A stretch of DNA of 21,354 nucleotides from a virus, in IMG/VR virus record IMGVR_UViG_3300017763_000250, positions 1 to 21,354 of that record; one strand, given 5' to 3'. Below the pieces are notes generated by a model that was given only the letters and a program-made list of their open reading frames with translations, searched no databases and was not told the DNA's origin. Below are positions 5,210 to 7,168 of this stretch, piece by piece (position 1 is the first letter of the stretch; each line of letters opens with the position of its first letter). The position numbers and the translations under genes are program-made.

Positions 5210-5430
5210 TTTTGTTCTCCTAAGTTTTGTGGCCTTATCTTTGGCCTGATTAATTTTGAATGTACTTCACTTACGTCACACCATCCAGCTTCAGCATTGA
5301 TTTGATCATAGAGTGAGTCGTTTTGCATAAGCACACTCCAACAATCATTTTCATTTTCAAACCAAATCTTTGCGTCAAGTTGATGTCCATCTATTACATA
5401 AGCTATAGTTAGTAGAGTAAAGAACTCCAT
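5206..5430 (-). CDS. Hypothetical protein, 74 aa
   Basis: From ATG 5430: MEFFTLLTIAYVIDGHQLDAKIWFENENDCWSVL, then a C-terminus with KLIRPKIRPQNLGEQK. Looks like a small alpha/beta protein with a hydrophobic first strand. I prefer ATG 5430 (AAAGGA six bases before it) over the in-frame TTG at 5445. It is the first gene after the operator-containing promoter at 5450-5479 and opens the second block of the early operon. The family is not recognised. Confidence 0.72.
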   Translation of the reverse strand: MEFFTLLTIAYVIDGHQLDAKIWFENENDCWSVLMQNDSLYDQINAEAGWCDVSEVHSKLIRPKIRPQNLGEQK

Positions 5431-5449
5431 TACGTTTCCTTTCAAATAG

Positions 5450-5479
5450 ATAGTAGTTGCGCTTGTGCAGTACTGTCAT
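5450..5479 (-). promoter_or_regulatory. Early promoter with embedded operator
   Basis: On the minus strand ATGACA (5479-5474), 18-bp spacer, TACTAT (5455-5450). The spacer carries the operator, conserved on one arm (plus-strand TGCGC-TTG-TGCAGTA at 5458-5472). The distance from -35 to operator is the same as in the exonuclease promoter. It reads toward the gene starting at 5430. Confidence 0.58.
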
Positions 5480-5481
5480 TT

Positions 5482-5496
5482 GTTACGTTACGTCAC
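5482..5496. promoter_or_regulatory. GTTACGTTACGTCAC palindromic site
   Basis: Fourteen of 15 bases match the perfect palindrome GTGACGT-A-ACGTCAC at 6210-6224 (compared in reverse complement). It begins three bases upstream of the -35 of the early promoter on the minus strand, the position of an activator site. Confidence 0.45.
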
Positions 5497-5499
5497 TTT

Positions 5500-5557
5500 G
5501 TAGGCAACTAAATGTGTATCTAGCTGCCTACGATATTGGGTAGCTGTTACGCTACCC
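5500..5557. other. Tandem hairpins after the first early gene
   Basis: Hairpin one: GGGTAGC (5538-5544), loop tgttac, GCTACCC (5551-5557), followed by TTTT on the plus strand only; the loop contains the stop codon of the minus-strand gene. Hairpin two: an 11-bp stem with one G-T pair between 5500-5510 and 5521-5531. On the minus strand neither has a T-tract, so they may be weak terminators, 3'-end protection or processing sites. On the plus strand the first could stop antisense transcription. Confidence 0.5.
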
Positions 5558-5930
5558 TTTTCTTGAGTTCTGCAACTTTCTTGGCAAGTGAGCTTTTAAC
5601 GTTGCGTTGCTTGCGTTCTGGTGTCCAAGCTTGACCATCTGTGATGATTGCGTAGACCTGACAATCAGCGTCATGTCTCTCTGCAAGATGTTCGAGTTCG
5701 ATTTCCATGTTGTCAAGCTTGCGAGTGATAGCTTCGGCTCTCATGTCGCGTCCTTCTGTTACCGCAGTCTCGAAGTCGGTGATGGTATCTGCCATCTGTT
5801 TCTTCTTGTAGAGAAGTGAATTGTAGCTAGTGTAGCAAGCATCGCGTGCCATGCTAGTCATTAAGTATTCCATATTATCACCGTTGTGATATTGAATGGT
5901 CTGTAGTTTAAGTTCAACAAGTTTAGTCAT
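5547..5930 (-). CDS. Hypothetical coiled-coil protein, first gene of the early operon
   Basis: 127 aa. The N-terminus MTKLVELKLQTIQYHNGDNMEYLMTS is followed by a long helical region with heptads (YKKKQMADTITDF, ITRKLDNMEIELEHLAERH) and a basic C-terminus (PERKQRNVKSSLAKKVAELKKRVA). Probably a coiled-coil oligomer; the basic tail could bind nucleic acid. CAGGAGAACC precedes the ATG. As the first gene after the divergent control region, and downstream of the structured leader at 5952-6089, it is likely transcribed first after entry. The family is not recognised. Confidence 0.75.
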   Translation of the reverse strand: MTKLVELKLQTIQYHNGDNMEYLMTSMARDACYTSYNSLLYKKKQMADTITDFETAVTEGRDMRAEAITRKLDNMEIELEHLAERHDADCQVYAIITDGQAWTPERKQRNVKSSLAKKVAELKKRVA

Positions 5931-5951
5931 TTCTAGGTTCTCCTGTTCTTA

Positions 5952-6089
5952 GCGAGGACCACCCTCGCAATGACGAGGAGATGCACGGAGCAGAAACGCC
6001 CAGAGGCGCTTGCAGTTTGCAAGGAGCAAAGCGAAGCGTACCTTGCAAACTGTTTCTGCCCGATGCAACGAAGGAGGAGTGCGAGGTGG
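5952..6089 (-). ncRNA. Candidate structured RNA or leader with three-way-junction fold
   Basis: GC-rich relative to its surroundings. Stems, in plus-strand coordinates: outer CCACCCTCGCA (5959-5969) with TGCGAGGTGG (6080-6089), one bulge; central TGCA-CGG-A-GCAGAAAC (5982-5997) with GTTTCTGC-CCG-A-TGCA (6052-6067), 15 bp with two bulged A; arm one CGCC-CAGA-GGCG (5997-6008); arm two CAGTTTGCAAGG (6013-6024) with CCTTGCAAACTG (6041-6052), 12 perfect bp. Purine-rich internal loops separate outer and central stems. It lies in the 5' leader of the first early gene if transcribed from the minus strand. The strand is inferred; a DNA-level role (origin, cruciform) is possible. The frames across it encode no convincing protein. 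Confidence 0.5.
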
Positions 6090-6200
6090 CCGCAGTGAAA
6101 CAGAGAGAGCATAGGTATGAGTCAACTGGCAGAACTTCAACGAAAGACCATGAAGGCCTTTGTAGTAGTCAATACCATATGCAGTAGTGAACGCCACGTA

Positions 6201-6224
6201 ACTATACTAGTGACGTAACGTCAC
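6201..6224 (-). promoter_or_regulatory. Perfect palindrome with adjacent minus-strand -10 element
   Basis: GTGACGT-A-ACGTCAC at 6210-6224, a 15-bp perfect odd palindrome. On the minus strand TAGTATAGT follows at once (TATAGT at 6206-6201), with no -35 hexamer at the right distance. That is the layout of an activator-dependent promoter with the palindrome in the -35 region. A transcript from here would carry the structured leader into the first early gene. Confidence 0.42.
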
Positions 6225-6258: not shown

Positions 6259-6281
6259 GGGGGGAGAGAGGGAGAGGGGGG
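6259..6281 (+). other. G-tract, potential quadruplex, upstream of terS
   Basis: Six G (6259-6264), AGAGA, three G (6270-6272), AGA, six G (6276-6281). At least four G3 runs are available with short loops, so an intramolecular G-quadruplex is possible. A second G-tract (6784-6789 and 6792-6796) lies directly after terS. A stray perfect TTGACA (6228-6233) upstream has no matching -10. Confidence 0.5.
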
Positions 6282-6324
6282 CTAGTAAATGAAACAATGG
6301 TTTAGAGTATCTCAATCCTTCTAT

Positions 6325-6381: not shown

Positions 6382-6409
6382 CTTACAACACTAAGAAGAA
6401 GGATATGAG

Positions 6410-6784
6410 ATGCTTCCAGCTGATAAGAAACTTACTGATAAACAAATGGCTCTGGTGGATATAATGGTAGCAAAAGGATTACCACCAGCTAAAGCCGCTG
6501 TTGAAGCTGGATACGCTGAAGGTAAATCTGGATATGTCTCCGCTTACAAAGCACTGAAGACACCTCATGTGCAACAGTATATGATGCAGCGAATGAATGA
6601 AGAGTTTGGAGTTAGTGCTACTGTAGCAGTTGGTACTGTTCGTAGGTTAGCTCAGAACGCTAAGTCTGAGTACGTTCAGCTCGAGGCGAGTAAGGATTTA
6701 CTAGATAGAGCTGGGTATAAACCTATAGATCGTTCCCAAGTACAAGTCGCAGGAGATATAAAGGTTTCTATTGACCTAAGCTAG
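6410..6784 (+). CDS. terS: Terminase small subunit
   Basis: 124 aa. Recognises phage DNA and regulates the large subunit at packaging start. The N-terminal DNA-binding region LTDKQMALVDIMVAKGLPPAKAAVEAGYAEGKSGYVSAYKALKTPHVQQYM (residues 8-58) is the typical HTH of Terminase_2-like small subunits. A helical oligomerisation region follows (SATVAVGTVRRLAQNAKSEYVQLEASKDLLDRAGYKPIDRS, 69-109) and a C-terminal beta tail (VQVAGDIKVSIDLS). AGAAGG precedes the ATG at the right distance. First gene of the plus-strand operon, flanked by G-tracts on both sides. The large subunit lies 1.9 kb downstream rather than adjacent, with small genes between. Confidence 0.87.
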   Translation: MLPADKKLTDKQMALVDIMVAKGLPPAKAAVEAGYAEGKSGYVSAYKALKTPHVQQYMMQRMNEEFGVSATVAVGTVRRLAQNAKSEYVQLEASKDLLDRAGYKPIDRSQVQVAGDIKVSIDLS

Positions 6785-6887
6785 GGGGGTAGGGGGAAAA
6801 GTTAGTAGCTATGTTACTGTAATAGTCTCTCCCTCACATTATTAGTAAAAAAGGTTTGTGCATTGCCAAGAATATTTTTTGTATGCT
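6784..6887 (+). promoter_or_regulatory. Intergenic G-tract and TTGTGCATTG motif
   Basis: This 114-bp gap holds a G-tract (6784-6796) and, at 6854-6865, GTTTGTGCATTG followed by AAGAATATTTTTTG and TATGCT (6882-6887). The same 12-mer followed by a T-rich stretch occurs at 10231. It lies 34 bp before the small-protein cluster and is a candidate promoter, possibly for a modified or phage-directed polymerase. Confidence 0.48.
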
Positions 6888-6898
6888 AAGGGTTTTTT

Positions 6899-7168
6899 AT
6901 GAGGAAAGAGCATAAGAATCCGAAGGGTGGTTTAACTGCTGCTGGTAGGCGTTTTTTTAAGCGTACTGAGGGGGCTAATTTAAAGGCTCCTGTTAAGAGT
7001 GGTACTAATCCTAGGCGTGTTTCTTTTGCGGCTAGATTTGCTGGAATGAGGGGTCCGATGAAGGACGAGAAGGGGAGGCCGACTAGGAAGGCTTTGGCAT
7101 TGAAGGCTTGGGGTTTTGGCAGTGTTGAGGCTGCGCGTAATTTTGCAAGAAGGAATAGGAAGAGCTAA
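6899..7168 (+). CDS. DUF6321-like small basic protein
   Basis: 89 aa, very basic. Blocks KGGLTAAGRRFFKR (residues 9-22), LKAPVKSGTNPRRVSFAARFAGMRGPMKDEKGRPTRKALALKAWGFGS and EAARNFARRN match what I know of the DUF6321 family of marine phages and cyanophages. The function is unknown; the charge and the position between terminase genes suggest DNA or virion association. AAGGG seven bases before the ATG. It ends in a TAATG overlap with the next gene. Confidence 0.85.
   Translation: MRKEHKNPKGGLTAAGRRFFKRTEGANLKAPVKSGTNPRRVSFAARFAGMRGPMKDEKGRPTRKALALKAWGFGSVEAARNFARRNRKS

Follow-up and report, generated by a model that had tools for sequence, protein, structure and literature searches.

The maturation gene of the RNA phage MS2 is preceded by a leader that forms a cloverleaf, the stable fold of which shuts translation, whereas a transient structure permits translation at an earlier time (PMC6733600). 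The mRNAs of the type I toxins hok and aapA are kept inert through long-distance pairing that hides the Shine–Dalgarno sequence (SD) and form metastable alternative hairpins (PMC6733600). The locus described here resembles the MS2 leader as a structured 5′ leader whose stable fold would close the translation of a phage gene, and resembles hok and aapA in its long-distance pairing that would hide the SD and in its alternative hairpins. It differs from MS2 in that it belongs to a DNA phage and combines two covarying alternative stems with a conserved three-way junction; in addition, a crude barrier calculation gives no support here for a folding delay like that of MS2. For hok and aapA, the pairing is with a downstream or 3′-terminal partner, a small toxin is made, and an antisense RNA is involved. 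In our locus the partner lies upstream and the product is P127, a protein of 127 amino acids.

Structured leaders are also found on the first early genes of phages, namely gene 0.3 of T7 and N of lambda, where RNA structure limits translation until processing or binding takes place. The leader of P127 shares with them that it is structured and precedes a first early gene, but we know of no three-way junction or mirrored gene start in the T7 and lambda leaders, nor are we aware of an inverted gene copy in the leader of MS2. With translational riboswitches it has in common a junction domain and mutually exclusive stems adjoining the ribosome site; it differs from them in that no Rfam family matches and in that the gene itself is copied in the masking strand. 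In the open-access papers that we searched there was no prior description of this leader.

The window, that is the whole stretch of 21,354 bases that was analysed (IMG/VR record IMGVR_UViG_3300017763_000250), comes from a tailed phage as judged from its gene content. The plus strand carries terminase, portal, and capsid genes, and the minus strand codes for a RecE-like exonuclease, a second recombination protein, a RusA-like resolvase, and small regulators. When the large terminase subunits (TerL) are compared, the nearest annotated relative is Pelagibacter phage EXVC031P Hodr with 65% identity. By searching with TerL and P127 we collected 160 loci, and we refer to the fold-bearing group as ocean podoviruses. 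The fold sits between divergent operons, with TerS on one side (6410, plus strand) and P127, the first early gene, on the other (5547–5930, minus strand). P127 has no known family and contains a conserved RDACYTSxNSL stretch. Its AlphaFold2 model is a helical hairpin (pLDDT 92) without significant structural match, the best E values being 0.087 in the PDB and 0.0057 among viral models, and no homolog was found in 50,697 phage records. That P127 regulates its own synthesis is a guess.

An earlier note on this DNA had described a three-way junction of four stems, and all four are present at its coordinates when the plus strand is read: an outer stem with one bulge (about 5959–5968 with 6081–6090), a central stem with two single-base bulges (5983–5996 with 6053–6066), an arm with a CAGA loop (5997–6008), and an arm of 12 bp (6013–6024 with 6041–6052). 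The region 5945–6095 is much more stable than expected: −64.4 kcal/mol (z −5.1) for the plus strand and −65.1 kcal/mol (z −5.8) for the minus strand as RNA, and −37.9 (z −5.9) with DNA parameters, and in each case none of 200 shuffled sequences folded as well. The gene start at 5930 and its ribosome site are on the minus strand, with the start codon at 5928–5930 and the SD (AGGAG) at 5940–5944. As to the extent, the structured and covarying unit is larger than the proposed 5952–6089 and reaches from about 5896 to 6151.

In the sense of the mRNA, which corresponds to the minus strand, the order of the leader is D′–C′–junction–B′–A′–SD–AUG. Strand D′ (6099–6151) is the upstream arm of an outer inverted repeat, P0; it is an inverted version of the P127 start, and its inner part pairs with SD and AUG. 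The downstream arm of P0 (5896–5947) comprises the ribosome site, the AUG, and the first P127 codons. Strand C′ (6081–6093, mRNA GCGGCCACCUCGC) pairs with B′ (mRNA GCGAGG; 5958–5968 together with the hairpin loop GUGGU) in P1, the stem that closes the junction. Within the junction, the 5′ side of the central stem P2 is at 6053–6066 and its 3′ side at 5983–5996; the other elements are P2a, the arm of four base pairs (CGCC/GGCG, 5997–6008), a conserved linker (CAAG in the mRNA, 6009–6012), and P3, the 12-bp arm with its loop (6013–6052). A promoter-like hexamer, TACTAC, is predicted at 6162–6167 and the transcription start of the leader is likewise a predicted one; a scan for consensus promoters found none, and there is no terminator-like site beside the fold.

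To follow the fold through related phages we built a covariance model from nine leaders, which located 41 leaders in related contigs but did not recover more diverged ones. P127 homologs have a related fold directly upstream. The check for compensatory changes that the earlier note had called for turned out in favor of the stems: in the alignment of the 41 leaders, 91.5% of the cells pair and two-sided changes occur at 28 of 39 base pairs. A double change that keeps the pairing was counted in 225 cells, compared with 66 in shuffled alignments and at most 57 when the partners are slid. Such counts tend to favor the structure, because the model guided the alignment and the sequences share ancestry. 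The same trend is seen in a MAFFT alignment of nine rows. P2 and P2a vary and covary freely, whereas the base of P3 (UUCGCA/UGCGAA in most relatives) and the CAAG-type linker are kept in sequence, and many relatives have a long extension of P3. At the level of sequence, the fold and its covariation are thus demonstrated. Two observations that the earlier note had named as evidence against a conserved fold, stem changes without compensation in homologous regions and a dispersed REP-like repeat, did not occur; the element is found at one place per contig, beside a P127-type gene. Its statement that it recognised no matching riboswitch or phage RNA also holds, since Rfam gave no match at the gathering threshold for the window and 14 relatives and only chance matches at a relaxed threshold. 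A covariance model now exists for this fold missing from Rfam. Among the 50,697 phage records only chance matches of similar DNA were seen. One further match of the model was found in the sole genome contig that bears P127 (L165, PBGS01000047.1), part of a MAG labelled Euryarchaeota; with its P127 gene and leader it is probably a phage contig that was wrongly binned.

The outer strand of the junction has a second, competing partner which had been overlooked. Strand A′ (5952–5957, mRNA CCUCGC) can pair with B′ to give the hairpin P4, read on the plus strand as GCGAGG[ACCAC]CCTCGC at 5952–5968. B′ therefore pairs either with C′, with the junction closed (P1), or with A′, with a hairpin adjoining the SD (P4), and both mutually exclusive pairings are preserved through independent changes across the leaders. 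Examples are GAAGG[GATAAT]CCTTC with CTTATCCCTTC in relative L110 and TCAAGAGG[GTTGG]CCTCTTGA with CCAACCTCTTG in L141. For P4 alone, two-sided changes are found at four of the six pairs, compared with 0.9 in shuffles. Most of 69 leaders reach their lowest computed energy with P0 and P1 formed, and in the energy model P4 does not clearly expose the SD. Sequestration of the SD by A′ alone was rejected, as the openness of the SD does not differ consistently between the P1 and P4 states. A slow-folding timer finds no support either: the computed barrier to closure is small in our crude calculation and no folding delay is predicted.

Immediately 5′ of C′ lies a strand that in nearly all leaders pairs with the SD and tracks its variants: GGAGTC is matched by GACTCC, GAGGTAC by GTACCTC, and GGAGACC by GGTCTCC. 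Over 23 SD variants the mean energy of the SD duplex is −13.3 kcal/mol with the own strand, compared with −10.1 with strands of other phages, −7.8 with shuffled strands, and −6.2 for a comparison set of 619 other SD-led starts. The SD duplex of the window is less stable than the mean (−11.0; p 0.11 for this leader by itself) but continues over the AUG, a codon that is fully paired in 36 of 52 distinct leaders. When 20 predicted transcripts were folded, 5% of the SD and 13% of the AUG remained unpaired; with the upstream arm shuffled these values rose to 21% and 47%. SD and AUG are on average the best matched part of the arms. Thus, the SD is predicted to be paired with a distant complementary strand, as in fold-back leaders that mask the ribosome site.

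Beyond the part that masks the ribosome site, the same strand carries on as a reversed counterpart of P127, taking in its start and coding sequence. The mirror in the window covers about 52 columns at 77% (6099–6151 against 5896–5947), and longer ones were found in relatives, with 461 columns in L081, 421 in L011, and about 390–410 in L110 and L034, giving a range of arm lengths from about 50 to 460 bp. The mirrors in L081 and L011 cover the whole gene and were independently detected as nested inverted repeats; in L029 the first gene resembles a distant P127 and is mirrored as a whole. Each copy is much more similar to the gene of its own phage (mean score 70.5) than to the genes of other phages (27.5). 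In 19 of 29 clusters the arm begins 0–12 nt after a conserved TACTA(C/T) hexamer, plausibly a −10 element, and in several it runs past the hexamer. In Hodr, a cultured pelagiphage, the first gene is likewise accompanied by an inverted copy of itself; this gene is not recognisable as a P127 homolog. There, a stretch of 563 nt folds with −226.8 kcal/mol, compared with −131 ± 7.5 for shuffled sequences, into a long hairpin without junction (L084, about 6395–6958), which is near-continuous and takes in both the start of the first early gene and that of TerS. The copy in Hodr differs from the gene by 10 substitutions and 26 small indels when gaps are cheap or by 57 and 10 when gaps are costly, and this split is uncertain. 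At 11 loci of the same sample with another type of first gene no inverted copy was present.

None of the inverted copies at 97 loci encodes an intact protein. An intact divergent paralog of P127 was therefore rejected, a single weak fragment in L110 aside. Two further coding candidates were also dismissed: an upstream ORF through the leader (window 5933–6112, 59 amino acids), whose frame is not kept in relatives, and a small gene on the plus strand at the inverted ribosome site, where no ORF is conserved and the lengths lie anywhere between 2 and 65 codons. The latter candidate is the reverse-complement view of the strand that pairs with the ribosome site.

Leader and gene appear to travel together. 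Relative L005 is 97.6% identical to the window over the TerL region; the shared sequence stops at window position 5499 and resumes at 6191. Between these points L005 has a different gene with its own structured leader, and both the mirrored start and this fold are absent. As far as sequence comparison can tell, leader and P127 are exchanged jointly. The replacement cassette (L005 3051–3550, first gene of 174 amino acids) has a strongly structured leader with z values of −4 to −5, and this leader may follow a comparable three-armed design. Relative L090 is nearly identical to the window in flanks and gene and has a different junction with a long P3, which suggests that junctions are exchangeable as units of their own.

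The reading of the earlier note as an undescribed three-way junction in the leader of the early operon is retained. The note had mentioned neither the alternative hairpin nor a masked SD and AUG, nor had it recognised the arms as an inverted gene copy. Because of the fixed relation of the fold to SD and AUG and its exchange as a cassette with P127, we prefer the explanation that it is the 5′ leader of the P127 mRNA, off by default, masking the ribosome site, and travelling with its gene; we give this explanation about an even chance of being correct. The upstream inverted copy of the gene start would pair in P0 with the SD and usually the AUG and so keep translation closed by default, and the three-way junction would be the hinge that joins the two arms. 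The base of P3 together with the CAAG linker would be a likely sensing or binding site, and an exchange between P1 and P4, or binding or cleavage at the junction, might open the ribosome site. That RNA is the acting molecule is our inference, and so are the direction of control and its trigger.

If the fold acts as RNA, pairs other than Watson–Crick pairs should favor G–U on the transcribed strand. In P2, P3, and P2a, G–U makes up less than 1% of the pairs and is not clearly commoner than A–C. In P1, 22 G–U stand against 7 A–C, which favors the mRNA strand, with a single inherited wobble making up much of the number; in P4 the two are equally frequent (5 each), and P0 with 13 G–U against 49 A–C favors the opposite strand. 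The substitutions in the copy are mostly towards G (A>G 232, T>G 118, C>G 87, compared with G>A 30, G>T 37, G>C 13), and such a general enrichment in G can explain the bias of P0 through base composition. As T>G shows about the same rise as A>G, we rejected the bias as proof of a plus-strand RNA, and a lower folding energy of the plus strand was set aside, since in our judgement the energy model gives bonuses to purine-rich loops. The near absence of wobble pairs without a consistently favored strand is the main doubt about the leader explanation; the wobble test selects no strand, and a DNA fold or arm-to-arm copying of a palindrome may lie behind the pattern instead. Further points speak against a leader: the mirrors of whole genes in L081, L011, and L029 exceed what masking needs, the wobble departures in P0 go in the wrong direction, even if base composition can explain them, and the weak SD pairing of the window, the failure of P4 to expose the SD clearly in the energy model, and the small computed barrier count against it as well.

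Part of this evidence would suit a structure at the level of DNA, a palindrome situated where early and late genes diverge, which is extruded or single-stranded and recognised, for example, in replication initiation or near the packaging start next to the TerS gene. Covariation by Watson–Crick pairs only, the lack of a consistent strand bias, and the low energy with DNA parameters would then be expected, and the arms extend past promoter and gene in some phages and into the TerS start in Hodr; the cumulative GC skew turns near the fold as well, but divergent transcription gives the same turn. Nevertheless, we regard this as rather improbable, as an essential origin or packaging site should be present in all close relatives and the very close relative L005 lacks fold and mirror, although its replacement is also structured, and as SD and AUG are on average the best matched part of the arms. 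The pairing of the arms might also be a mutational by-product without selection, if the polymerase switches template at the hairpin tip and repeatedly re-creates an inverted copy of the adjacent sequence. The similarity of each copy to its own gene, the lack of intact proteins in the copies, the variable arm length, and the rarity of wobble pairs would all follow, but widely diverged phages share an architecture with two exclusive pairings, a conserved P3, and the linker, long palindromes do not normally persist, and other first genes have no mirror, and hence we think it unlikely. By its position as the first transcribed part of the early operon, and by its compact junction with a sequence-conserved P3 and linker, the leader RNA could instead act on RNA polymerase or be processed into a small RNA, in the manner of HK022 put or of phage ncRNAs, and not on P127 translation. 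This would leave the covarying partner of SD and AUG unexplained and finds no terminator-like site adjoining the fold; it seems very improbable to us.

Whether leader or DNA, we tentatively propose a new kind of regulatory locus, a proposal that we ourselves hold to be somewhat doubtful: a gene and an inverted copy of its start, or in some cases of all of it, stay in register across a conserved three-way-junction hinge, where concerted copying from arm to arm preserves the self-complementarity, and the mRNA or DNA could always be folded shut however fast the gene evolves. If the P127 leader explanation is true, the first early gene of a group of ocean podoviruses is controlled by a self-mirroring leader unlike the described riboswitches, and its arms show how self-complementarity is renewed while the gene diverges.

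Some further features lie near the fold. The cumulative GC skew of the window turns at about 5250–5600, beside the fold, for which divergent transcription or a replication origin are possible causes. The palindrome GTGACGTAACGTCAC (6210–6224) and the similar GTTACGTTACGTCAC (5482–5496) flank the P127 cassette and are possible operators; motifs like these recur upstream of the leader in relatives. Between the divergent operons there is also a G-rich tract, GGGGGGAGAGAGGGAGAGGGGGGC, at 6259–6283, and the same tract is found in L005.
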